Part shown: piece after piece, positions 4,980 through 53,080 of the stretch | How the letters are laid out: each line of letters begins with the position of its first letter | Position numbering within the stretch: the first letter of the stretch is position 1 | Assembly (NCBI RefSeq): GCF_000145035.1 | Contig: NC_014387.1 | Location: 876,276 to 940,275, forward strand | DNA: 64,000 bases | From: Butyrivibrio proteoclasticus B316 | Lineage (GTDB): Bacteria > Bacillota > Clostridia > Lachnospirales > Lachnospiraceae | Direction: 5' to 3' | The notes under the pieces: model-generated | The model's database searches: none | What the model was told of the DNA's origin: nothing | The model's input: the letters and a program-made list of their open reading frames with translations, nothing else | Translations under genes and position numbers: made by a program

Positions 4980-5119
4980 CTGTCATCCCGCCCCAGGATC
5001 CTTCACTCACAAAGGCGCGAAAATACCTCTTTGCGAATCGCATTCGTCTCTGATGAGGAGGGGCGAGGTGTAAAGATGGGGTTGATTTTTGGGGGAGAAT
5101 ATTGTAAGTTATAGATGTC

Positions 5120-5194
5120 CATACAACTGGCGGATGAGTGGGTAACCACATGGGAGTATGGATAATAATATTGAATGTCGACCGCCTGGGCAAC
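5120..5194 (+). promoter_or_regulatory. ZTP (pfl-type) riboswitch
   Basis: The sequence matches the pfl/ZTP aptamer: ACTGGCGGA near 5126, a small hairpin GTGG-GTAA-CCAC (5138-5149), GGGAG at 5152-5156, a variable linker, and the diagnostic CGACCGCCTGGGCA at 5179-5192. GGCGG (5129-5133) can pair with CCGCC (5182-5186). ZTP riboswitches sense ZMP/ZTP, which accumulate when 10-formyl-tetrahydrofolate is short, and switch on purine and one-carbon genes. The two genes downstream act exactly at the ZMP (AICAR) step, which strongly supports the call. Confidence 0.92.
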
Positions 5195-5226
5195 CGCTTT
5201 TAGAGGTTTGCTCAGGCGGTTTTTTT
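5181..5226 (+). terminator. Riboswitch-controlled intrinsic terminator
   Basis: ACCGCCTGGGCAACC (5181-5195) pairs with GGTTTGCTCAGGCGGT (5205-5220) and a run of seven T follows. The left arm is the 3' conserved half of the ZTP aptamer, so ligand binding should prevent termination (an ON switch). A second small inverted repeat, GAATCGAG/CTCGATTC (5273-5296), lies between this terminator and the ribosome binding site; its role is unclear. Confidence 0.9.
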
Positions 5227-38834: not shown

Positions 38835-41800
38835 GTGAGTAAATTTTATTTCAGAGTAATATCAATAGTGCTGGCGATGGTAATGGTGATTTCCAGCAGT
38901 AACGTAAGTACGTTGGCTTATGATCCAATTCCTGAAGATGTAGAGGAAACTGTTCAGGATCCGGAAAACAAAATCCCAAATGAAGAAATCTTAGACCCGT
39001 CCAAGACTCAAATTCCACCAGATGAATTAAATAAAGATGGTGAAGGAGAAAATCCTGATAAAAAGGGTGAAGGCAAAGTTGAAAAAGAGCCTTCTACGGG
39101 AAATGGTAATCCTCCTGTAATAGATGAGAATCTTAATAATGGTGGGAATACCCCACTTAATGAGGAAGGTAATGGACAGAAGTCTTCTGATGCAAATGGT
39201 AACCTAGACGGTAATGGACAGAAGTCTACTGACAAAAATGGCAACCCTATAGATAAAACTGGCAAAAGCGGCAGTGAAGAGGACATTCTACTCGATCAGG
39301 ATGGAAAGCCTATAACACCGGATGGAAAGCCTGTAAAGGATGGAGAAGAATCTCTCAAAGGTGAAGATAAGTCCGGCGAAAAAAATCCGGCAAAGAAAGA
39401 TACTGACGCTACACCTGTAAAAGAGCAGATGACCCTTGAAAGTGAGAGTGGAAGCGGAAATGTCAAAGTTGAAGGTAAGCTTCCACAGGGAAGTGTCCTT
39501 ACAGTAGACCCAATTTCCGATGAAAGAGCTCGCGAGCTTATCGGAAATACAGACGAAAACGTCGTATGTGCATTTGATATTACACTCTCTTTAGATAATA
39601 AGAAAATAGAGCCTGACGGAACAGTTAAGGTGACAATAGCCCCTCCTTCAGGACTTGATATAGATTCACTTCGTGGTAAGCAACTTAAGCTTATACATAT
39701 ATTAGATGATGGCAATAAGGAAGAATATGATCTTCAGATAAATTCAAACGACGAATTTGAGTTTGAAGCCGGAAGCTTTTCTCCATGGATCATTACTATA
39801 AATGGAGAAGAGAAAGAAGTTGATTATATAGAAAAAGCAGACGGTAAGACTTTTAACCAGACAATCAGAGTAAACTTCAGTGATGCCTCACTTGTAAATT
39901 CTGCTTCCAAAGTTAAACTCACCGTATTTGGAAATATATCTAAAGATAATGTGAAGAGCGGAGAAAACGTTAGTAAGGAAATGTTTTCTCTTTTATCCAT
40001 GGAATTTGGAATGACAAGTTTAACATCCAATGCCGGTGGATCATCAGCCTATGCGGACTGCACAATTACAGGAATTCCTGCATACATAATCGGCGGGACA
40101 GGTGACGTTACCAAGGGCGGAAATGGCAGCTACAGTATGCCTTCAGGCTTTTATGGTGTGATGGTTGAAACGGTAAATGGATACACACCCAAGCAGGGAA
40201 GCGGAGAAGGCGACCTTATTATTCTATCTCCGGTAAAAGATGACAATGACGCTTCCTGGAGTACCAGATTGGTAACTGTTGAAAATGATATTTTGGATCT
40301 TGTAAGTCCATCATTTAGCATAGACTGGCAGGATAACCGTAACTTTGCCGGGATGCGTCCATATTCTGACGGATCTTCTATTATGGAGGGCAAATCTTCA
40401 GAAATTGCTGGCAAAATTCTTCTCTTTTATAAAAATGGCGATTCATATATGCCTGTGGATTCTGACTCTCTTGTACTTGTGTCAGCAGGTAGTGAGAAGC
40501 CTCTTATATATTCATCATCCTTTAGCACCTGGAACGTATCATTTAGTAAGCTTCCTAAGAGTAATTCTCAGGGAACTGAATACGAATGGTATATAAAGCT
40601 AAGTGATGATTTTCTTGATGATGGAACTGACAGAAAGGCATATTATAAGGCAGCTGGTCTAAATAGCGAGGGATATCTTCCTATATCTGGAACCGGTACA
40701 TCCAAAATATCTCTTGAATTCACTGATGGTGTCAGAGGTAGCATCATTTGGAGAGCGGATACCAGAGAAATAAGCATTCCATCTATGCCAACAGGAAATA
40801 CATTATATGATACTGCCGGAATGAAGCTCTATATGAAGGCTGGAGACGATACTGCCAAAGAGGTTACGACTCCCTACATTATAAAGTGGGAAAAGACTCA
40901 GGGTGCAGATCAGGAGATCTGGAATTATGATATTTCAGGGCTTCCTCTTTATACTGCAAGAGGAGATGCCATCGTTTATTACACTGTTATAGGACAGAAT
41001 CCATATGTAATGAACATGAATGAGAATGACTCAGTATCCTATAAATTTATTTACGATAACGGTGAAGTCAGTTCAGAAACTGATAAGTGCTATTCCGGCC
41101 AGAAAATATATGCGACAGTTATGGCGGATGCAGAGTTTTCTTTTACCAAGGCATGGTATGACGGAAATGATGATGTCAGCATAGCCAGGAGAAAGACCGC
41201 TATAGAAAAGGGAATAACTCTGTATTTGTGGAGATATCCCGTAAATAAAGGCATCACCGATGGTGCACCTGTAACCAGGGACGCCAGACAATACACCTAT
41301 AAGCTCACACAGGCTGATGCCGGGGATGTAGATAATAACACTATCTCTATTACGCAGGATAATTTTGCGACAGGTCAGTCAGATACATTTCCTAAATATG
41401 ATGAGATGGGTTACAGATACATTTATTATGTGACAGAGGTGTCAAATTCTGAACTCTACAAGACTATATATCATAACGGAGATGAGGCATTTGACGGGAC
41501 CTCAACAGATAAAGCAGCTGAAAACGGTGGTCTTATATGCAATGTCAGAAGTACCAAGGTTGCCCCTTCTGTTACCAAGATATGGAAGTCTTCCTCTGTA
41601 GCAGACTATGTGGGCTCTGAGAGCACGTTCGCCCTTCAGAAAAAAGTGGATGGAAACTGGATAGATACCGACAACGAAGTTGTTCTAAAAGGCTTTTCTT
41701 CAGGCAAAAAGAAAGTCACAGGAGTGTTTGGCGTTCAGGACTTATACGACGGTCTTGGAAGAGGCTATGACCTAAGAGTAATTGAAAAGACTGTGGTTTC

Positions 41801-44800
41801 CGGAAGCAAGGTCAGCAACTGGGTTTCTGATGAGTGGACTGAGGAAAACGGAGTTTATAGTGCCGTTTTTGAGCTTGGTGAGTATACATATCAGGCTGTT
41901 TCTGAGATGAACCTAAATATGACAGATGGGTCAGAATCAGCAGAAGCTGTAGTCACTAACAAACTTTATGGAACCAAGGAGCTAACCCTTAAGAAGATAT
42001 GGGATGGTGACTGGGGAATTGGAACTTCTGAGGATAAGACAGGCAATGTAACCTTTGATATTTATCGCTCTGATAAATCGGAGGTTTACGCAACTGTCAC
42101 TATGCAGAAAGCTACTGACTCAGATAGTAAGACAGAAGGCGAAGGCAGTTTAACTATCACTGGAAGCGATAGCTTCGTAAGAGCCAAAAATGAAGAAATC
42201 TATGAGATAGAAGGAAGCGGAAGCAAGTATACATGGACATCTGCTCCTATCATAGTTCCGGCTTATGCAGAAGATGGAGAACAGTACACTTATACAATTA
42301 AGGAAAGCGTTACAACAAGCCAGAGTTTTGGAAAAGAGTACTTTATAAATGTTTCCGGCAAAAAGATCGAGCTTACTGCCAAAAACTATACAGCATCTGA
42401 CGGAAATAAGGTGAGATTTGATGTCAATAAGATCTGGAAGGATGAGGGAGATCTTTTCCAGAGAACTGATATCATGGTGGAATTTGGAACCTATGACGCT
42501 GGTGGAGAATTTAATCCTATAGATGACGAGAACGGTAAGCCCTATATTCTCTATCTGAAAGCTTCAAATAATTATTCTGAGCGCATTTGGATTGACAAAG
42601 ATAAAGCAGCCGGGATCAGTATAAGAGAGAGCCTTTATAATGAGGCAACCGGCTCTTATGACAGAGTGATGACAGATTTAAACTTTGATAGCGACCAGGT
42701 TCTTACAGGTGGCTATATAGGTGCTACTACCGGAAGTCAGGGGAATTTAAGCAGACCCGGCTATAAAGTTCAGATTACTAAGGGCGAGAACTCTTTTGCC
42801 ATTACTAATACAAGAATTGCCAAGAGAGCTTTTGAATTTATCAAAGTATGGAAGGATTCCGAAAATGCTCTTAAGCTCAGAGGAGACTTTCTGAGAGTAG
42901 CTCTTTTCAGAGAAGAAAATGGAAGCGAAAAAGAATTAGCCTATATCGATATACCTACCTACAAACCGGATGATAACAACACTCTTACAAGCGGAGATGC
43001 TCTGAAAGCTTTCTTTAGTAACAATGGAGCGTATTACCCTGCTTATGATGAAAACGGGCAGAGCTATCAGTATAGCGTCAAGGAGTATATCTGCAAGGGA
43101 ACTTATACAAGTGGCGAGCAGGTTCTTGCTGATGGAGAGGCAGAAACTGCTGCTGATTCCAATGAAGAAGTTAAGATAAATGCCACAACTGAGACAACCA
43201 CAACAGGGTATGTGGTTGATAAATTCACGGAAGATACTTCATATGAGCTTCTCGCAGCAGATGCAGCGCTTAACAGGAAGTTTGCTGAACTGCTGATTCA
43301 GGATAATTATGAATACACCAATATGGCAGCAGGACAGAGGGCAGAAGTTCCTTTCTACCTGGTATGGAATGATCCGGCAAAGAGCGATGTCAGACCTGAC
43401 GTGTATTTCACCCTTTACTACAAGGTTGGAGATGAAGGAGAGCTTAAACCTTATACCGGCGAGTACACAGAGCGTTGGGATGATGTGGAAAGCGGCAACA
43501 AGTATATCCAGAAGGCTATATTTGGAGGACTGCCTTCTGCTGATGCAAACGGAACTGTCTACAGCTACTATGTGGCACTGACTCTTAATAATGCTGCTTC
43601 CAATTACATAGTGGATAACTATACTGATGATTTTGGTATGGGCGAAAATGGATCTTTGCATGATACAGATTCACTTGAGGTTATACCTGTCAATGGAACC
43701 AATTATCTCAAGGTAAAAGATGGAGTTGAGACTAGTCAGTACACCAAAGAGAATAGCTTTGCAGTTATCGGGATCAAGGATACAATCAAGATTGAAGGAC
43801 GTAAGCTCTGGCTCGATGTTCCTGAGGGAATTACAGCTAAAAATCTTCCAAATGCATATATTTACCTGTTTAGAGAAAGTGATTATGACGACTCAAATAA
43901 GGTTCCTGATATATCAGGGGTAACTAGGCTTGAAGACAGGAAAGATGCTTATTTCCAAAAGTCAGTTCAAGAGATAGCTTCAGGTGATGGCTCTAAGTCT
44001 CCGCAGGGGCTTAATGAGGCCAAGTCTATGTTTATATTTGGTACATTCGATGAAAGCGGAAATCCTGTATATGTAGAATTCCCTAAATACGATGAAATGG
44101 GATTTTTGTACAAGTACAGTGTTCGAGAGATAATCTACAACAAGTATGAACATGAACTTCCGGCTGAGATCATGGTGCCAAGCTATTCTGACAACACAGC
44201 CGACCTTACAAATGTTTACAAGATTTCTAATTCCAGAAACAGGAGAAATTTTGAAGTTACAGTTAACTGGGAGGGTAGCAAGAAGTTTGATGCTGAGAAT
44301 GATGCCAAGGCAACTGTAAGGCTATACAGGGCAGAGCTTGATACCGATGGTAACTATGATGACGGTAATTTCGATAATGTAACCCCTAATACATCAACTG
44401 CTGTGTTCAATATGGGTGCATCAGAGCTTGTTGATGAGAAGATAATAGCCAGAAGCGACGGCGATTCATTTAAGGCTGAATGGCTTAATATGCCTATTTT
44501 TGCTCCAAGTGGTAAGCTCTATGCTTATTATGCTATTGAGATGACAGATGATATGCCGGGCTTTAGTGTGACAGCAACTGGTGATGGCAGCATTAAGACC
44601 CAGGTAAAAGCTAATAATCAGGAAGGTTTTACAGGTCTTGCTTTTGGAAATAATGGAATATACCTTAACAATGTAAATTCTGAGAATCCTGATAATAAGA
44701 AGGTTGCAACATTTACAAATACCTACAACACATTAGCTTTTGACACTATTACATTTACAGCTGAGTGGAACAGTGCATACGCATCCCTTATTCCTGACAG

Positions 44801-47800
44801 CACGGGGCTATCAAATGAGACAGATGCTGATATAACAAAGAGAGCTTTGACTTTTGAGGTTACAGCAACTGCTGCTTCTCAGGCCGGCAAAGATAATAAG
44901 AATGGTTTGACTTTTACTGAGGGAACAGATTTTACAGTTATTTCTGTTACACCTTCAAGCGACGGTCAGGGCAATAAGTGGGATTACACAATCAGGTTTA
45001 ATAGCCCTGTGCCAGTGTATTCTGCAAACGGTAATCTCTATACCTATAGCGTAAAAGAAAAACTGAATTCAGATTTTGTTAAAGCAAACTACAAAGAGGA
45101 TAAATCTGTTATTTCAGCCATTGCAAGTAATGCTGTAAGTGACCAGAACGATAGCAACCTGACACTCAATATCAGTAACAGTAGCAGTAACATCCTGAAA
45201 AATTCTCTTAAGGGAAATATAAGTGTCTCTAAGAGATGGGACGACTACAGTAATGATTATGGCATGAGAGAGGGACTTATCAGATTCAAGGTTGACTATA
45301 GAATTGGCAATAGTGGAACCTGGATGCCTTATGGAGGAGGCGATGATAACGAATCCCAAGGCACTTATCAGACCTTTTCACTTGATAAAAATGGCAGCTG
45401 GAAGACAACCATATCAAATCTTCCCGTTGCGGCCAAAGATGCTACTGACAGCTATAGAGCCGGTGATAAGTACCAGTACAGAATAAGAGAAACTCAGATA
45501 GTCACAACAGAATCTAACGAAGCAGAAGTAGTTTTAGATGTACCACTACCTGAAGCTCAGAATGCAAATGCATCCCAGAGTGTCATCTGGAAACAGAATG
45601 GAACTGGCAAAGAGGATACAGATAAGTTTGTCGATATTGTTTCTGTGGGAAACTACAAGGTTTATAACCCTACAGATATTACTGATATTTCAAGTTCAAA
45701 ATCAGTTAAGATTGTAAACCAGCTTGATTCTGACAATGCAGTAACCAAGTTAAAGGTTGAGAAAATCTGGGATGATGAGTCAGATAAATACGGACTCAGG
45801 CAGACTTCTGTAACAATCATGATCCAGAATTCCAAGGATGGTAATAACTGGACTGATGTGGCTTCAAGAGTAATTACAAGTTCATCAGCAGATCCTTCAG
45901 ATAGCAACAAGTGGGTTACAACCTTTGAAAACCTGCCTAAATACTATGGAAGTGCTACTGATAACGATAGGTATTTATACAGAGCAGTAGAAATCAATAT
46001 TGGAAAGAGCGGCATCGCTGATAGTGCAGGCACTCCAACAGGACCTGTTAGCCAGAATAATGCTTACAGAATCGGCTCATATCAGGTAGAGCATAACGTT
46101 AATACAGATGAACCGACTTTGTATGTCACAACTATCAAAAACAGTCTAATTAAGAGTGTTAACAGAATAAACGTTAACAGATACTGGAATGATGAGGAAA
46201 CATCACATTCAGGAGTAGCGATTGGTCTCTACAGCTCCAACTTTAGAAGCGGAACTGCAGCAGCGGGAGTACCTGCAAACACAGGCTCTTTAGCTAAGCT
46301 CAATTTTGACGGAAGCTCTCTTACTCTTACTGATGATGCTCCTTCAGGCACATTTACAGGACTTCCTGAGTACAATAGTGACGGAAATTCTATTGTCTAC
46401 TACATAAAAGCTACTATGCCAAGCAGTTATAAGACTCAGTATCTGTCAGCAACGGGTGACTGGCCTTCTACAGGACTTGTGCCTGTTGATGCTACTCAGC
46501 ATACAGATGCGGGTATTTCATCAGGAAACTTTTTTGTTACTGTTATGGGAACGCCATATACAAGTGCATCTGTGAAAAAAGAGTGGTCTGATAATGACAA
46601 TATATTCGGAACAAGGCCAGGAAGCGTAAATGTTAAGCTTCAGAGAAAAGAAGTGGATACTGCAGGCACAGAGTACGCAGATGTAACCTGGGCGGATATT
46701 CCTGAAAATGTAACGGCAGCAGGCAAGATAAAGAGTGGCAAGGGAAGTGAAAAGGCTATAGTAACTCTTAGCGGTTCCTGGAGCGCAAGCTTAAGCCTTC
46801 TTCCTGCCTATAAAAGAACCTACAGCAGTAAAGCAACAAAATATGAATACAGATTTGTTGAATGTGATGCAAGTGGCGAAGAGTATGAACCTGTTGGATA
46901 TAGTTCAACTCTTTTAACAGATGCTGATAATAAGACAACTATAACCAATACACTTATCACCAAGGATATCACTGTAGTTAAGGTGTGGGATGATGACAGC
47001 AATAGAAGAGGCAAAAGACCTTCCGCTATAACTCTAAGTGTAAGCGGACAGGGCAGATTTGCTGACAGAGCGGTCACCCTCAGCGAAAGCGGACTAGCTA
47101 CAGGGACAAGTGCTGACTTTGATGTAAGAGCTGCAGTAAGTGCAGATGGAAACACCTGGACTTATACCTTTGCAGGCCTTCCTAAGTATGTCTACGGCAG
47201 TGGAGTAGCTTCTTTAGCAGATATGGCTTATTCTGTTACTGAGGATATAGATGCTACCTATAATAACGGCCTTATCCTCAAGAACTATTACACTACTAAT
47301 TATGCGGCTGATGGAGATGCAACAACTATCACCAATTCTGCAGTAGATTCATTTGTTTCTCTAAGAGTCGAGAAAAACTGGGAAGATGATGATGACAAAT
47401 ATGGTCTTAGACCTGAGAAAATAACAGTTTCTATCCAAAGATCATCTGATAACGGACAGACTTGGAGTGACTTTGATACTCAGGATATTGATAATAGCTA
47501 TGTGGCAGCCGGTGATGGAAATAAGTGGTCTAAGGTATTTAATAATCTTCCCAAATATGATGGAAATGTAGAAGATAATCTTATTTTCAGATACCGCGCA
47601 ATAGAAGTTAAGGTCGGAGATGATGCTGTTATAGCAGATGATACGCAGGAAACTACTATTTACAGAGGTGGCGATTATATAGCAGAGTATGACCATAATT
47701 ATACTAATGCAGCTCTTTTTGTGACTACTATTACAAATGAGCTGGATTATGACCCATCACGCGACCTTGGAATTATCAATACAACCGAACCTGTTCAGGA

Positions 47801-48992
47801 TGAAGAAGGAAACGACATCAGGGGCGGCGAAGTTAAGACATATACAGGTAGTAAGAGCGTAAATAGTGAAGAAGATATAGATGAAGCTGATTATGTTGAT
47901 GATAGTACAGAGTTTATCCAGGATGCCATGTCTGTAGAATTCAGACCTGATGAAGAAAAAGGCTACACCTATTCTGATTCACTTACTATTAACTGGTGGA
48001 ATGACGGAGACAAATTAGCAGATGATCCTCACAGACAGTCAATCAGCGGATATCTGTACACTGACGAGGAAAGCGGCAAAAAATATCCATATGTAGGAAA
48101 GCTTAAGCTGATAAATGGCGAAATAGCCTACGAGCCTATCGATAGCGACAGTGATAGCGATGGACAAAGAACTATAGATGCTGAGTATATTGAAGCTTTT
48201 AAGGCAGCATGGTCACCTCTTTTTGAAAATGTGGACAGTTCATTTAATGTCATAACTATCCTGCAGGGATCTGTTGTTATTACCCTTGCAAGCGAAGCTA
48301 GTAAAATGCCACTTAGAACCCTTGTTGAGGTACAGTTCGTGCCTGTAGTACAGCCGGAAGACCCTGTAATTAACCTGCCACCGTTCAATATTCCAATTCC
48401 GAATCCGCAGGGTAATACAAATCTTCCATCTTTTGGAAATGGAAACACTCCTACACCTGGAAATAATGTACCGGGAAGTTTTCCTGTCCCTGGAAATGGA
48501 AATACGCCAACACCGGGAACTGGTAACACAACGACTCCAGAAACAGGTAATATTACAACTCCTACAACTGGAAGCGGTAGTACTCCAACATCTGGAAATA
48601 CGACACCTGGAAGTGATAATGGTAGTGCAAGTACTCCGTCACCAGAAAATGACAATAACAACTCTACTTCACAGGAAAGCATAGATACATCCGTAACAAC
48701 GCCTGTATCAGATTCTGAGAGTGGAAATACAGATGCTACAACACAGGTAAATGAAGCTCCTCAGGATGACCAAAACGGTAGCGCGTTAGCTTCTGGCAAT
48801 GCTCAGAGTAATGATGAGAGTAATGCTCAGAATAATGACCAAAGTAACGACGCAGCTCATAAGGGAGTTCGAACAGGAGATGATACTCCATTAACACTCC
48901 TTGTAGTAGTTCTGGTAATTCTGATTCTTGCCTTTATAGCTGTCTATGTTATTTACAGGAAAAATAAGGGCAGAAAAGATAAGATGATATGA
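38835..48992 (+). CDS. Giant cell-wall-anchored protein with about 15 CnaB-type repeats
   Basis: 3385 residues from a GTG at 38835, supported by AGAGGAG upstream. A signal peptide (to about residue 29) is followed by a 170-residue acidic Asn/Gly/Lys/Asp-rich segment and a 500-residue region I cannot classify. From about residue 765 to 2980 come some 15 CnaB-like modules. Each opens with a strand of the type VEKIWDD, often followed by YGLRP, and ends with YxVxE and a TN motif. Those Lys, Glu and Asn positions fit intramolecular isopeptide bonds. A unique domain (about 2990-3150), a Thr/Pro/Gly/Asn wall-spanning linker and a sorting signal (VRTGDD, hydrophobic helix, RKNKGRK) follow. It is probably an adhesin linked by the neighbouring sortase. 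Confidence 0.88.
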   Translation: MSKFYFRVISIVLAMVMVISSSNVSTLAYDPIPEDVEETVQDPENKIPNEEILDPSKTQIPPDELNKDGEGENPDKKGEGKVEKEPSTGNGNPPVIDENLNNGGNTPLNEEGNGQKSSDANGNLDGNGQKSTDKNGNPIDKTGKSGSEEDILLDQDGKPITPDGKPVKDGEESLKGEDKSGEKNPAKKDTDATPVKEQMTLESESGSGNVKVEGKLPQGSVLTVDPISDERARELIGNTDENVVCAFDITLSLDNKKIEPDGTVKVTIAPPSGLDIDSLRGKQLKLIHILDDGNKEEYDLQINSNDEFEFEAGSFSPWIITINGEEKEVDYIEKADGKTFNQTIRVNFSDASLVNSASKVKLTVFGNISKDNVKSGENVSKEMFSLLSMEFGMTSLTSNAGGSSAYADCTITGIPAYIIGGTGDVTKGGNGSYSMPSGFYGVMVETVNGYTPKQGSGEGDLIILSPVKDDNDASWSTRLVTVENDILDLVSPSFSIDWQDNRNFAGMRPYSDGSSIMEGKSSEIAGKILLFYKNGDSYMPVDSDSLVLVSAGSEKPLIYSSSFSTWNVSFSKLPKSNSQGTEYEWYIKLSDDFLDDGTDRKAYYKAAGLNSEGYLPISGTGTSKISLEFTDGVRGSIIWRADTREISIPSMPTGNTLYDTAGMKLYMKAGDDTAKEVTTPYIIKWEKTQGADQEIWNYDISGLPLYTARGDAIVYYTVIGQNPYVMNMNENDSVSYKFIYDNGEVSSETDKCYSGQKIYATVMADAEFSFTKAWYDGNDDVSIARRKTAIEKGITLYLWRYPVNKGITDGAPVTRDARQYTYKLTQADAGDVDNNTISITQDNFATGQSDTFPKYDEMGYRYIYYVTEVSNSELYKTIYHNGDEAFDGTSTDKAAENGGLICNVRSTKVAPSVTKIWKSSSVADYVGSESTFALQKKVDGNWIDTDNEVVLKGFSSGKKKVTGVFGVQDLYDGLGRGYDLRVIEKTVVSGSKVSNWVSDEWTEENGVYSAVFELGEYTYQAVSEMNLNMTDGSESAEAVVTNKLYGTKELTLKKIWDGDWGIGTSEDKTGNVTFDIYRSDKSEVYATVTMQKATDSDSKTEGEGSLTITGSDSFVRAKNEEIYEIEGSGSKYTWTSAPIIVPAYAEDGEQYTYTIKESVTTSQSFGKEYFINVSGKKIELTAKNYTASDGNKVRFDVNKIWKDEGDLFQRTDIMVEFGTYDAGGEFNPIDDENGKPYILYLKASNNYSERIWIDKDKAAGISIRESLYNEATGSYDRVMTDLNFDSDQVLTGGYIGATTGSQGNLSRPGYKVQITKGENSFAITNTRIAKRAFEFIKVWKDSENALKLRGDFLRVALFREENGSEKELAYIDIPTYKPDDNNTLTSGDALKAFFSNNGAYYPAYDENGQSYQYSVKEYICKGTYTSGEQVLADGEAETAADSNEEVKINATTETTTTGYVVDKFTEDTSYELLAADAALNRKFAELLIQDNYEYTNMAAGQRAEVPFYLVWNDPAKSDVRPDVYFTLYYKVGDEGELKPYTGEYTERWDDVESGNKYIQKAIFGGLPSADANGTVYSYYVALTLNNAASNYIVDNYTDDFGMGENGSLHDTDSLEVIPVNGTNYLKVKDGVETSQYTKENSFAVIGIKDTIKIEGRKLWLDVPEGITAKNLPNAYIYLFRESDYDDSNKVPDISGVTRLEDRKDAYFQKSVQEIASGDGSKSPQGLNEAKSMFIFGTFDESGNPVYVEFPKYDEMGFLYKYSVREIIYNKYEHELPAEIMVPSYSDNTADLTNVYKISNSRNRRNFEVTVNWEGSKKFDAENDAKATVRLYRAELDTDGNYDDGNFDNVTPNTSTAVFNMGASELVDEKIIARSDGDSFKAEWLNMPIFAPSGKLYAYYAIEMTDDMPGFSVTATGDGSIKTQVKANNQEGFTGLAFGNNGIYLNNVNSENPDNKKVATFTNTYNTLAFDTITFTAEWNSAYASLIPDSTGLSNETDADITKRALTFEVTATAASQAGKDNKNGLTFTEGTDFTVISVTPSSDGQGNKWDYTIRFNSPVPVYSANGNLYTYSVKEKLNSDFVKANYKEDKSVISAIASNAVSDQNDSNLTLNISNSSSNILKNSLKGNISVSKRWDDYSNDYGMREGLIRFKVDYRIGNSGTWMPYGGGDDNESQGTYQTFSLDKNGSWKTTISNLPVAAKDATDSYRAGDKYQYRIRETQIVTTESNEAEVVLDVPLPEAQNANASQSVIWKQNGTGKEDTDKFVDIVSVGNYKVYNPTDITDISSSKSVKIVNQLDSDNAVTKLKVEKIWDDESDKYGLRQTSVTIMIQNSKDGNNWTDVASRVITSSSADPSDSNKWVTTFENLPKYYGSATDNDRYLYRAVEINIGKSGIADSAGTPTGPVSQNNAYRIGSYQVEHNVNTDEPTLYVTTIKNSLIKSVNRINVNRYWNDEETSHSGVAIGLYSSNFRSGTAAAGVPANTGSLAKLNFDGSSLTLTDDAPSGTFTGLPEYNSDGNSIVYYIKATMPSSYKTQYLSATGDWPSTGLVPVDATQHTDAGISSGNFFVTVMGTPYTSASVKKEWSDNDNIFGTRPGSVNVKLQRKEVDTAGTEYADVTWADIPENVTAAGKIKSGKGSEKAIVTLSGSWSASLSLLPAYKRTYSSKATKYEYRFVECDASGEEYEPVGYSSTLLTDADNKTTITNTLITKDITVVKVWDDDSNRRGKRPSAITLSVSGQGRFADRAVTLSESGLATGTSADFDVRAAVSADGNTWTYTFAGLPKYVYGSGVASLADMAYSVTEDIDATYNNGLILKNYYTTNYAADGDATTITNSAVDSFVSLRVEKNWEDDDDKYGLRPEKITVSIQRSSDNGQTWSDFDTQDIDNSYVAAGDGNKWSKVFNNLPKYDGNVEDNLIFRYRAIEVKVGDDAVIADDTQETTIYRGGDYIAEYDHNYTNAALFVTTITNELDYDPSRDLGIINTTEPVQDEEGNDIRGGEVKTYTGSKSVNSEEDIDEADYVDDSTEFIQDAMSVEFRPDEEKGYTYSDSLTINWWNDGDKLADDPHRQSISGYLYTDEESGKKYPYVGKLKLINGEIAYEPIDSDSDSDGQRTIDAEYIEAFKAAWSPLFENVDSSFNVITILQGSVVITLASEASKMPLRTLVEVQFVPVVQPEDPVINLPPFNIPIPNPQGNTNLPSFGNGNTPTPGNNVPGSFPVPGNGNTPTPGTGNTTTPETGNITTPTTGSGSTPTSGNTTPGSDNGSASTPSPENDNNNSTSQESIDTSVTTPVSDSESGNTDATTQVNEAPQDDQNGSALASGNAQSNDESNAQNNDQSNDAAHKGVRTGDDTPLTLLVVVLVILILAFIAVYVIYRKNKGRKDKMI

Positions 48993-49040: not shown

Positions 49041-49907
49041 ATGAAAAATGATCTTATTAAAGAGAAAATTTTAAAGATAATACTGGCACTTCTGGGGATT
49101 GGAATCCTTGTTGTCGGCGGAGCTATTGCGGCCATCATGGCAGGCTATGCCTCTGATCAGAAGGATAATCAGCATATCAGAGATCTTGCCTATAAAAAAG
49201 ATCTTTCTGGTGCGCAAAGCGGCATTGCCCCTAAAAGAGCAGGTTCTGATGGGAATTTAAGTGCCGAAAATAGTGATTCCTCAAGAATTATGGAAGAGAC
49301 AGTAATTGACTTTAATGTGCTCAATACTATCAATAAGGACACCGCAGGCTGGATAACAGCCTGCGGTGAAAACATTGATGGACCTGTAGTTCAAACAGAT
49401 AATAATGACTATTATCTGGAGCACCGCTTTGATGGAAGTAATGGAAGTGTGGGATGCTTTTTTGCAGATGCAAATGGTGGACCGGCATTTGTAAGCCCTC
49501 TGACCATAATTTACGGCCACAACAGGAAAGATGGAAGTATGTTCCATCCCCTATTAGAATACAAAAACCCGGACTACTATCATAAGAACCCTGAATTTAC
49601 TATAGATACACCTGAGGGCAGAATACACTATGCAGTTTTCTCAGCCTACTACGGCGACTACGAAGACATCTTCGATGACACACTATTCGATGCCCTTACA
49701 AATAACGACCAGACTTCCCTCCAGGCCCTATTCAACCAGTCCCTCGATAAATCAATCCTAAACCTTACTCCTGCAGAAACCCAAGCCCTCCAGGCCCTCT
49801 TTTCCCAGGCTCTAGGCACCAATACAGCCCAGCTAGTCATGCTCTCAACCTGCGAATACTCAGGAAGCGACAACAGAATGGTAGTCCTCGGCCTCGCCGC
49901 CTACTAA
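49041..49907 (+). CDS. srtB: Class B sortase
   Basis: 288 residues: a membrane anchor (about 10-35), a flexible stalk and a sortase fold beginning near FNVLNTINKDTAGWI. The catalytic triad is visible: His160 in IIYGHNRKDGSMF, Cys271 in LSTCEYSG and Arg279 in DNRMVVLG. The sequence pattern is class B. It cleaves a sorting signal and joins the protein to peptidoglycan or a pilin-type acceptor. It lies 48 bp after the giant CnaB protein and is probably dedicated to it. An Ala/Gln/Leu-rich insertion (about 220-260) precedes the active cysteine. Confidence 0.92.
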   Translation: MKNDLIKEKILKIILALLGIGILVVGGAIAAIMAGYASDQKDNQHIRDLAYKKDLSGAQSGIAPKRAGSDGNLSAENSDSSRIMEETVIDFNVLNTINKDTAGWITACGENIDGPVVQTDNNDYYLEHRFDGSNGSVGCFFADANGGPAFVSPLTIIYGHNRKDGSMFHPLLEYKNPDYYHKNPEFTIDTPEGRIHYAVFSAYYGDYEDIFDDTLFDALTNNDQTSLQALFNQSLDKSILNLTPAETQALQALFSQALGTNTAQLVMLSTCEYSGSDNRMVVLGLAAY

Positions 49908-49913
49908 CCCCTG

Positions 49914-50606
49914 CCACTCACAGTTTGCAGTAGCCCCTGCCTTCCCGGGGCAAGGTGGCCTTCGCTCATTCTGGAAGTTTTTTTCCTCGGCTCCTGTCCG
50001 GGTATTCATTGGTTCATGGATGGCATCAAAGAATCCCTCGGTTCAAAACTCGCCTCCGGCAGCACTGGCGCAGCAGCCATTTTCCCATGCGAGTCTGAGA
50101 TGGCAAATGCGATTTTCTAATGTTTCCATAGCATTTTTTCACGATGCATGCGAAGCACTGTCTGAAGCAGGACGGAAATTATGTTTTTTATTATGAAAAT
50201 GACATAGCTCGCTTTGCGAGCGTATTAAAAAGAGGCGGAACCGTCTTCTCCAAGCTTGCTTGGAAGAACGATTCCGTCTCTTTTTATAGATGCTACGCAT
50301 CATATGTCATTTTCATTTAGTAGATATTCTGTCCGTCCTGCAAGTTTTGCTGAGCATGCATCAATAAAAGAAAAAATGCGGAAACATCTGAGAAAATCTG
50401 CATTTGTCAGTGACGAGCAGGGGGAATGGTGCAAGCAAAAGCTGCCCGGAGGCTCAGACATGTTGAACCGAAGCGGGATTCTTAATATGCCATCCATGAA
50501 CCTAATGAATATAGCAGGACATACACAGAACTCAAAAATACTTCCATGAATGTCGCTTGGCTCCTTGCCCTGGGAAGGCAGGTATTTATCCGGAAACTGT
50601 GAGGGC
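49914..50606. repeat. Roughly 690-bp near-palindrome with structured apex
   Basis: The left arm (49914-50205) and right arm (50304-50606) are diverged inverted copies. Perfect matching blocks include CCTGCCTTCCC near the outside, GGTTCATGGATGGCAT (50011-50026 / 50487-50502), GCAGGACGGA (50167-50176 / 50332-50341) and ATGAAAATGACAT (50193-50205 / 50304-50316). The 98-bp apex holds hairpins GCTCGC/GCGAGC, an AGAGGCGGAA.../...TTCCGTCTCT stem ending in a T-run, and GATGC/GCATC. This explains nearly all of the 725-bp gap between sortase and HD-GYP genes. Short ORFs in it follow from the symmetry and are not called as genes. Confidence 0.85.
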
Positions 50607-50632
50607 TACCTTAGAGCTGCGGCAAGGGAGGA

Positions 50633-53080
50633 TCATTTTTCGCGCATGGTGTAGTTTTCGTCGTGGTCGATGAGGCCGAGCATGATTCCTGCGAAGAGGG
50701 GATCGAACTGGGTGCCGATTCCTTTGGCGATTTCTTCGCGGACCTTGGCCTGGGGCATGACACCACGATAACTACGGGTGCTGGTCATGGCGTCGTAGGC
50801 ATCTGCAACTGCGATGATACGGGCTTCTTCGGGTATTTCTGCTCCGGCAAGGCCGTCGGGATATCCGGTGCCGTCATAGCGCTCATGATGCCACCTTGCA
50901 CCTATGGAGAGCCGCGGGTTTTCTTTGATACTCTCTAATATTTTGCCACCTATTACAGGATGAGTTTTGATCATTTCGTATTCTTCGTCAGTTAGTTTAC
51001 CTTGCTTGTTTATGACACTATCGGGGACACCAATCTTACCTACATCATGGAGAAGTCCCATCATGTACAGCTCATTTTGCTCACCTTCGGAGTAACCCAG
51101 CTGCTCAGCAATCATTTTGGTGTACCTCGCAACTCTCGAGGAATGACCGTTAGTGTAAGCATCTTTGGCATCAATTGCCTCTGCCAGTGCACTTACCACC
51201 TCCATGTTCAGCTCTGCAACCTTCTTGTTATTGTGCTGCTCAATCTTGTAACCAAAGTAATAGAAGAACAGGATCAGAACGAAAATAATAATGGATATCA
51301 GAATATTAACTGCAAGCTGCGAATGAACACTTTCAAGGAGCTCTGCGTTGTTGACAGCAATGATCACAACCCATTTTTCCATGATGGCATGTACAAAAAG
51401 AGTACTCTGCTTGCCATCAATAACTGTATCAAACTGTCCCTTACCAAAACCTATGATATTGTTCTCAAAAATATCCCGGCTCATACTGCCGCGCTTTGTA
51501 ATATCCTTGTGAGCAACCACGAATCCATCCTGATCAAGCACCATTCCATACCCTTTTCCGGCAACACTTATCTGCTCTGCGATTTCCTGAATGTGATTGA
51601 CCTTAACATCAAGGCATACAACATCATGCAAGTGCTCGGACGGACCAGAAGCTTCTCTTCCAAAGCTTTTGGCAAAAGTAATGACTATATCTCCGGTCTG
51701 GGCGTCAAGATAAGGAGATACAATTGCAATCTCACCATTAGCTGCAATTGCAGTCTTATACCAGTCTCTTTCCTCAGGGTTATACCCCTTTGGCGGGATC
51801 CATCCGGACCCATCCATGAAGACTCCGTTAACATAGGCATAGATACCCGTAAAGTTCTCATCAAACTGATGGGACTGTATTTTGGTCTGGTCAGTTATAT
51901 ATTTGTAAATATCTTCTGTTGACGCGCCGCTTTGATCCATCAGCTCTACTGTATCTGCGACAACTCGAAGAGTAGTCTTGGCAACAGAAATGTAATTCTC
52001 AAGCTCTGCAGCTGTAGACTTGACTACGTCCTTGGCATCTTCATTGATCTCAGTGACAGACGCATTATATAGAAGCCTTGTGTTATAGACAACTACAAAT
52101 AGCATTAGAGAAAAGGTGATGATGATCGTAAAGATAAAGCTGAAGCGGCTTCGCCTTGCAGAGTCCATATCAAGCTTCTTGTTCCTGACTTTGGCGTAGT
52201 GATGGTCTATCACATATACCAGGAGCAGGACCAGAAGAGATAATGACACGGAGATGACAAACAGCATTACAACGATCCTGTCGGAAGCCGTAGTTCCAAG
52301 CTGCATGGCGGGAAGAGTATTTTTTAATACGATAGAAAGAATATAGCCGCCAATGGATGCGCCGCAGATAAGGACAGAAACGATTGCCTGAAACAGCATC
52401 TGATATCTGAATTCAGCAAGCTCGTTTCCGGAATCAGCAGAAGTCTCTTTATTAAAGTGCTTGCCCGCAGCCCATGCAAACAGGATCATCAGTACAGAAC
52501 TGGATATAGTAAAGTAAGGATAAGGATCAGCAAAATCGTTTTCCCATGTAAAGCATGATGCAGTCCACATACCGTATTCGGAGATCAGGAACAATAAAAC
52601 AATTATTGAAAAATGAGGGAATTCCGCACCTTTTTTTCTGTTGCATACATAGTACATTATTTCCTGCATGCACAGGACCATAGTGATAGTAGTAGTTCCT
52701 ACCTGCCACAGATTGTTGAATATACCGCCGTATTGGATATACAGAGTGAACTGAATGATGTTAGTGAGAAATGGCCATAGAATGAGAGGATGGAAAAAAC
52801 ATTTGGCTTCATCTGAACGAATGCATAGAACAGCAAACACGAGAACAAAGTATCCTAAATTCCAACCAAAATAAGCCAGAAACTCAGATACTTCCGGATA
52901 CGAACCCATAACTAGAGAATATATTGTCCAGTAATAATCACTTAGAAAATCAGCAAGAAAGAAAGTTATCAGCAGCCAGTACCAACGCTTTGGGGTCTTG
53001 ATATATTTAAAAAGACATCCCAAAAGCCCCAGAATAGCAGCAAGCAGGGTTAGCACATTTTCAAAATTATCAACTACCAT
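50633..53080 (-). CDS. Membrane HD-GYP phosphodiesterase with Cache sensor
   Basis: 815 residues. The N-terminal half begins with about seven hydrophobic segments (1-210), then a further membrane pair brackets an extracellular dCache-type sensor (about 330-590) with NGVFMDGSGWIPPKGYNPEERDWYKTA-like features. The C-terminal HD-GYP domain (about 620-800) has LLHDVGKIGVPD, KTHPVIGG, WHHERYDGTGYPDG and IIAVADAYDAMTS. HD-GYP enzymes hydrolyse c-di-GMP. The double input (multi-helix region plus Cache) is unusual. GAGGATGG precedes the ATG. It ends beside the large palindrome and is divergent from the surface-glycan operon. Confidence 0.88.
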   Translation of the reverse strand: MVVDNFENVLTLLAAILGLLGCLFKYIKTPKRWYWLLITFFLADFLSDYYWTIYSLVMGSYPEVSEFLAYFGWNLGYFVLVFAVLCIRSDEAKCFFHPLILWPFLTNIIQFTLYIQYGGIFNNLWQVGTTTITMVLCMQEIMYYVCNRKKGAEFPHFSIIVLLFLISEYGMWTASCFTWENDFADPYPYFTISSSVLMILFAWAAGKHFNKETSADSGNELAEFRYQMLFQAIVSVLICGASIGGYILSIVLKNTLPAMQLGTTASDRIVVMLFVISVSLSLLVLLLVYVIDHHYAKVRNKKLDMDSARRSRFSFIFTIIITFSLMLFVVVYNTRLLYNASVTEINEDAKDVVKSTAAELENYISVAKTTLRVVADTVELMDQSGASTEDIYKYITDQTKIQSHQFDENFTGIYAYVNGVFMDGSGWIPPKGYNPEERDWYKTAIAANGEIAIVSPYLDAQTGDIVITFAKSFGREASGPSEHLHDVVCLDVKVNHIQEIAEQISVAGKGYGMVLDQDGFVVAHKDITKRGSMSRDIFENNIIGFGKGQFDTVIDGKQSTLFVHAIMEKWVVIIAVNNAELLESVHSQLAVNILISIIIFVLILFFYYFGYKIEQHNNKKVAELNMEVVSALAEAIDAKDAYTNGHSSRVARYTKMIAEQLGYSEGEQNELYMMGLLHDVGKIGVPDSVINKQGKLTDEEYEMIKTHPVIGGKILESIKENPRLSIGARWHHERYDGTGYPDGLAGAEIPEEARIIAVADAYDAMTSTRSYRGVMPQAKVREEIAKGIGTQFDPLFAGIMLGLIDHDENYTMREK

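Follow-up and report, generated by a model that had tools for sequence, protein, structure and literature searches.

The question raised by this locus is what a 701-bp near-palindrome lying between two genes that converge on it could be, and why its two arms still pair. The structure occupies positions 49910-50610 of the window, the whole 64,000-nucleotide stretch of the genome of Butyrivibrio proteoclasticus B316 that was analysed. An initial annotation, based on the letters alone, had proposed an ancient inverted duplication, a large structured RNA, or a mobile palindromic element. The reading that accounts best for the evidence below, and to which we give a probability of roughly 0.7, is that the palindrome is an old, MITE-like copy of a foldback transposable element that is non-autonomous, about 700 bp long, and devoid of a transposase gene.

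The Palindrome and Its Parts

The inverted arms reported at 49914..50606 are real. That location stands, and the best boundaries are slightly wider, at 49910 and 50610, these being best estimates set by two weathered terminal inverted repeats, CCTGCCACTCACAG on the left (49910..49923, + strand) and GGTAGCCCTCACAG on the right (50597..50610, − strand), each with five mismatches (counted, for the left one, against GTTACTATTCACAG). The resulting length of 701 bp agrees with that of the copies flanked by target duplications, which measure 696-704 bp. The left arm (49910..50206, + strand) was delimited by nested inverted repeats and by the fold, and the right arm (50303..50610, + strand) by these and by the alignment of one arm to the other. 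The inverted repeats are nested on a common centre and pair 49936-49984 with 50534-50582, 50011-50026 with 50487-50502 (16 bp, perfect), 50136-50157 with 50348-50369, and 50193-50206 with 50303-50316 (14 bp, perfect), the innermost being the apex hairpin repeat, 50226-50244 with 50268-50286. Over 49929-50575, the window arms are Watson–Crick complementary in 81.7% of the ungapped aligned columns. When folded, the + strand reaches −372.5 kcal/mol versus −217.8 (sd 7.2) for 20 dinucleotide shuffles (z −21.6), and the − strand, taken as RNA, gives a z of −18.9.

The apex is indeed built of separate small hairpins, as had been proposed, and covers about 96 bp (50207-50302, + strand). Side hairpin X (GCTCGC-TTT-GCGAGC, 50207..50221, + strand) is terminator-like on the − strand according to a simple scan; the central apex hairpin (50226..50286, + strand) has an A-tract, a stem, and a T-tract on both strands and resembles, by eye, a bidirectional terminator; and side hairpin Y (GATGC-TAC-GCATC, 50289..50301, + strand) flanks it on the other side.

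The element begins 2 bp past the stop of a sortase gene (49041-49907, + strand), and the reading frame of an HD-GYP gene (50633-53080, − strand) lies 22 bp beyond its end, both names having been assigned by eye, in the initial annotation and here. Immediately upstream of the sortase-like gene, 38835-48992 codes for a repeat-rich protein of 3,385 aa, surface-type by eye, with a C-terminal tail resembling a membrane anchor. The only Rfam match in the window is a ZMP/ZTP riboswitch (RF01750, 61.4 bits) at 5113-5198.

A Dispersed Family in Butyrivibrio

The genome holding the window (4,404,886 bases in four contigs) contains 14 copies or remnants of the element. These comprise the window copy, 11 further copies (L031-L040 and L043, with the right arm broken in L034 and L035), one that is divided between L041 and L042, and a fragment, L044. 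The element is thus present, as a MITE or foldback element should be, in dispersed multiple copies that carry no transposase gene. Second copies and covariation between the arms, in the absence of which the palindrome was to be considered a chance local duplication, are both clearly present, and that explanation is rejected. The copies in this genome have two types of outer arm and one common core; L032 joins outer arms of the window type to a core that is 97% identical to that of L034, and therefore the copies recombine.

Palindromes 500 bp or more in span were found at 38 of the 51 loci examined, one of which (L110) is merely a motif hit. Within the genus, relatives occur in 14 of 79 genomes, the window's own included, eight of them strong and six weak; in five of the weak genomes the match lies inside a palindrome 240 bp or more in length, and in the sixth (G046) the matches are at contig ends. 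Of the 397 genomes sampled from the family, nine gave a match, which was convincing in the window's own genome alone; the other eight had matches of 24-42 bp at nine loci, none of which has a long palindrome. Since nine candidates per genome were scored in the genus search and two in the family search, diverged copies may have escaped, and absence outside the matched genomes is provisional. The plasmid and phage records searched contained no match to the element. An exact 24-base pattern had no match in viral contigs and was found in 14 stretches of genome_contigs, every one of them with Butyrivibrio in its title. In this analysis, then, the element is known from Butyrivibrio alone, and literature searches, judged by titles and the openings of abstracts, turned up no paper on such elements in these bacteria.

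The remark that similar short hypothetical proteins exist in related genomes holds weakly: a 97-aa ORF (50256-50549) gives seven matches, three called 'hypothetical protein' by a source and four nameless. A coding repeat was rejected given these seven matches only and the short open frames on both strands; the ORFs called within element copies are short, with a maximum of 164 aa.

Ends, Target Duplications, and an Empty Site

Evidence for mobility comes from the ends. Terminal repeats reading GTTAYTATTCAC and identical 8-bp duplications bound L036 and L038, and the same GTTAYTATTCAC repeat occurs in L092 of genome G037, where the 8-bp duplication has a one-base defect at one end and falls outside the filter on unit length and terminal repeats described below. 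The terminal inverted repeats of a MITE or foldback element are clear in these three copies; those of L080 and L091 are unlike GTTACTATTCAC, and the copies in genomes G064 and G006 mostly lack defined ends.

The filter (unit length of 690-712 bp, terminal repeats matching at 9/14 or better) was applied to 39 copies, the incomplete L034, L035, L082, L104, and L108 being left out. Exact 8/8 duplications were found in three of them (L036, L038, and L091) versus none in 34 shifted controls, and duplications of at least 7/8 in four versus a control mean of 0.32 and maximum of 1; in the remaining 35, this filter detected no duplication. The motif GTTACTATTCACAG, with up to four mismatches, is present at 20 of 80 ends versus 2.8 expected (200 shuffled motifs, maximum 10; L034, L035, L104, and L108 left out). 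By itself, the 12-base motif occurs in 69 of the 79 genus genomes and is mostly no commoner there than its backward control, so single motif hits are uninformative.

An empty site was found for L038: its orthologous places in genomes G011 and G038, the two counted here (a relative in G064 is not), are empty and carry the target once, slightly diverged. The insertion point corresponds to the loop of a terminator-like hairpin. Terminator loops were nevertheless rejected as a general target, because among 11 joined sites (four of them belonging to MITEs of 143-144 bp) a clear hairpin of this type exists for L038 alone. Around the window copy, relatives of the HD-GYP gene in four genomes have no palindrome in the stretch fetched, and only the HD-GYP side aligns there.

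A target-site duplication together with an empty site is therefore found in the family, and no duplication is left at the window copy. Because this copy has five mismatches at each end and no target duplication, it is probably old. The mobile palindromic element of the initial annotation is thus supported by the multiple copies, the terminal repeats, the 8-bp duplications of the target, and one empty site, and it is near certain that the family is mobile.

A Likely IS66-Type Mobiliser

How might an element without a transposase move? An insertion sequence of 3,204 bp in genome G012 (L126, G012:C44, spanning the whole contig) is bounded by the family's ends, which there read GTTACTATTCACAGCC, and codes for a 584-aa protein that matches DDE_Tnp_IS66 (PF03050) at 3e-17. 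It also holds an ORF with an ASCH domain and a 139-aa ORF without a Pfam match. In the palindrome-rich genome G006, an IS end that has the family's ends adjoins a transposase 97% identical to the G012 protein. The flanks of two IS ends in that genome (L129 and L130, on contigs C36 and C24) share TTCCTATCA; they may be opposite sides of a single insertion that made a 9-bp duplication.

MITEs of 143-144 bp (L131-L134, in genomes G020 and G023) end in GTTACTATTCACAG, with a mismatch in one case, and are flanked by 8-bp duplications, three exact and one of 7/8. The best-preserved copies of the element, though not all copies, share GTTACTATTCAC ends with an IS66-type insertion sequence of the genus and with these MITEs, and 8-bp duplications are common to the element and the MITEs. 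IS66 ends start GTAA, and the IS group that shares the element's ends starts GTTA.

Mobilisation by an IS66-type system is likely, judging from the ends and the length of the duplication. The element itself, unlike IS66-family insertion sequences, has no transposase. A search for the IS66 family, which gave matches in 4 of 14 control genomes, found no such gene in the window's genome, the transposase being present in G006 and G012; a candidate parent IS on contig C4 of the window's genome (G000:C4), picked up by a single motif hit, had no transposase among its ORFs by eye. Since no IS66-family gene was detected in this genome, mobilisation in trans is inferred. An IS66-like transposase supplied in this way would act on the GTTACTATTCAC(AG) ends and insert the unit with 8-bp duplications, and the inserted copies would often persist at the 3' ends of genes.

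Turnover of the Apex

The central apex hairpin stands between two different side hairpins, and which of them lies next to which arm varies within genomes. Compared with the window copy, other copies of its genome have the apex turned around with respect to the arms, and such inversion exists within five genomes (the window's own, G064, G038, G011, and G006, the last scored after turning L096 and L097). Between L036 and L038, the end segments are swapped.

In one copy of the window's genome (L218, G000:C1:2494700-2500700), 4,558 bp interrupt the 3' side of the central apex hairpin. The insert codes for a protein of 1,390 aa whose C-terminal part is a phosphorylase-superfamily domain (PF01048, 3.5e-18) and which also matches, in PADLOC, PDC-M60C (4.5e-17) and a model for an effector (1.6e-13). 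This copy thus carries a defence-like gene between its arms.

Pairing of the Arms

Covariation commonly passes as proof that an RNA structure exists. RNAalifold, run on 31 aligned copies out of 44 (13 redundant or broken ones omitted, L096 and L097 turned to make the arms agree), gave 113 pairs, of which 86 are altered on both sides and yet remain paired. In pair counting, 93.2% of the cells of the stem are paired versus 76.5% after shuffling, and the covariation score is 0.478 versus 0.178 for shuffled and 0.09-0.12 for slid versions, the slid versions keeping relatedness and the shuffles not, with the structure derived from the same sequences. The element may ultimately go back to an ancient inverted duplication, but its arms are not simply decaying.

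Is the pairing that of an RNA? A one-strand structured non-coding RNA gene, multi-copy by chance, would explain the very strong covariation and the stability of the fold, and the 113 RNAalifold pairs taken together do contain more G-U than A-C (182 versus 92). However, when the left arm was aligned to the reversed right arm in 44 copies and every mismatch was scored alike, this unbiased count gave 10,346 matches, 278 mismatches of the G-U type, 277 of the A-C type, and 1,310 others, and the 81 pairs that are at least 85% Watson–Crick contain 34 G-U and 34 A-C. The large SRP RNA (RF01854), which like the element is a long imperfect hairpin, served as a positive control: the same counting in 30 genus sequences (the best 30 of 76 places) gave 278 G-U versus 85 A-C, with 26 of the 30 above parity. 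Of the two marks of a one-strand RNA, the element therefore has the covarying pairs and lacks the preference for G-U over A-C.

There is a second counter-result. In pairwise comparisons of copies that are less than 80% identical, one-sided changes that involve G-U outnumber those that involve A-C (330 versus 185, 935 versus 396, and 1637 versus 1144), these numbers being 54 versus 54 at 80-90% identity and 18 versus 13 above 90%. It is our judgement that the unbiased count is to be trusted over the RNAalifold pairs, because RNAalifold selects G-U columns, although this choice may not explain the whole of the G-U excess. Since G-U is not in excess over A-C, unlike in the SRP RNA, the pairing is probably maintained either at the DNA level or in the RNAs of the two strands alike, and maintenance of the stem at one of these levels is supported by the wobble count and its control. 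The plain one-strand form of the structured RNA proposed earlier is therefore not supported; it is also hard to reconcile with apices and end segments that invert between copies, with target duplications and an empty site, and with the lack of any Rfam match for the element at curated thresholds, which disposes of a known RNA family as well. Such a gene is, in our opinion, quite improbable.

Nor do loops stand out. Unpaired alignment columns have a mean identity of 0.712 versus 0.763 for paired ones, so sequence conservation does not single out loops as a functional mark, and conserved unpaired runs, such as CTCAGACATG, are few.

Two other explanations of the stem are compatible with mobility, and their likelihoods need not sum to one. 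The first is transcription of both strands from the flanking genes, the element being a bidirectional terminator or insulator, or a 3' UTR hairpin; if RNAs of both strands must fold, G-U and A-C would be equally selected against. This agrees with the position of the copies: among the 43 whose neighbours on either side were scored by simple ORF calling, 18 lie between convergent genes, 21 between tandem genes, and 4 between divergent genes, and in 25 of 44 (a hand count) the 3' end of a gene is within 30 bp of the palindrome edge or overlaps it. It also agrees with six terminator-like sites in 49600-51000 versus 1.4 in shuffles, with the two-directional architecture of the central apex hairpin, and with the insertion of L038 into the loop of a terminator-like hairpin. 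However, 700 bp is far beyond what a terminator needs, termination at the apex would leave no transcript containing both arms, the central apex hairpin (50226..50286) was not called by the simple terminator scan, and divergent sites may be few because insertions into promoters get lost. The placement at gene 3' ends may reflect the removal of harmful insertions or some role of the element there. On balance, we regard a two-strand transcript as possible but doubtful.

The second explanation is that the arms are kept alike by mutational copying, that is, by template switching within a quasi-palindrome, the stem having no function. The recurrent inversion of the apex in five genomes suggests exchange between arms, and both covariation without a wobble preference and unpaired columns no more conserved than paired ones would follow. 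Unlimited copying, though, would erase the mismatches between arms that persist across genomes at many of the same alignment places, and the few conserved unpaired runs also speak against it. Moreover, the compensated share of changed pairs grows with divergence (0.25, 0.36, 0.51, and 0.60 in classes of increasing divergence, then 0.46 in the most distant one), so compensation looks stepwise rather than instantaneous, which weakens instant arm-to-arm copying as the sole cause. A functionless stem is, in sum, an unlikely but serious alternative.

In the foldback transposable element that we prefer, the ends enclose an imperfect stem of about 300 bp whose arms co-evolve in such a way that Watson–Crick pairing stays, with G-U not preferred to A-C in the unbiased count. 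This pairing would matter as DNA, in the form of a hairpin or cruciform during replication or transposition, more than as a one-strand RNA; template switching between arms is perhaps involved and could also invert the apex. More speculative still is the idea that the conserved 'product' of this mobile element is the DNA fold itself, with its imperfect stem of about 300 bp, kept across a genus by covariation that lacks a wobble preference, an inverting apex capable of taking cargo such as the 4.6-kb insert of L218, and arms that could serve as the long terminal repeats of a foldback carrier.

Comparison with Known Systems and Meaning

In Galileo of Drosophila, the arms form nearly the whole element, as they do in Butyrivibrio; Galileo differs in not being bacterial, in its larger size, and in its class of transposase. 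Most bacterial MITEs are shorter and have short terminal repeats, whereas nearly the whole 700 bp of this element is one covarying imperfect stem. The likeness to bacterial MITEs, such as MITEAba12 (PMC6382973), lies in multiple copies, terminal inverted repeats, target duplications, and the lack of a transposase gene, and the likeness to foldback elements is to those of the Galileo kind (PMC2775673).

Strong covariation without the wobble bias of RNA, as seen in the unbiased count, provides a simple test, the comparison of G-U with A-C mismatches, which would separate one-strand RNA structure from pairing at the level of DNA or of two strands. The family itself would be a natural system for studying how bacteria tolerate, move, and correct quasi-palindromes of 700 bp.
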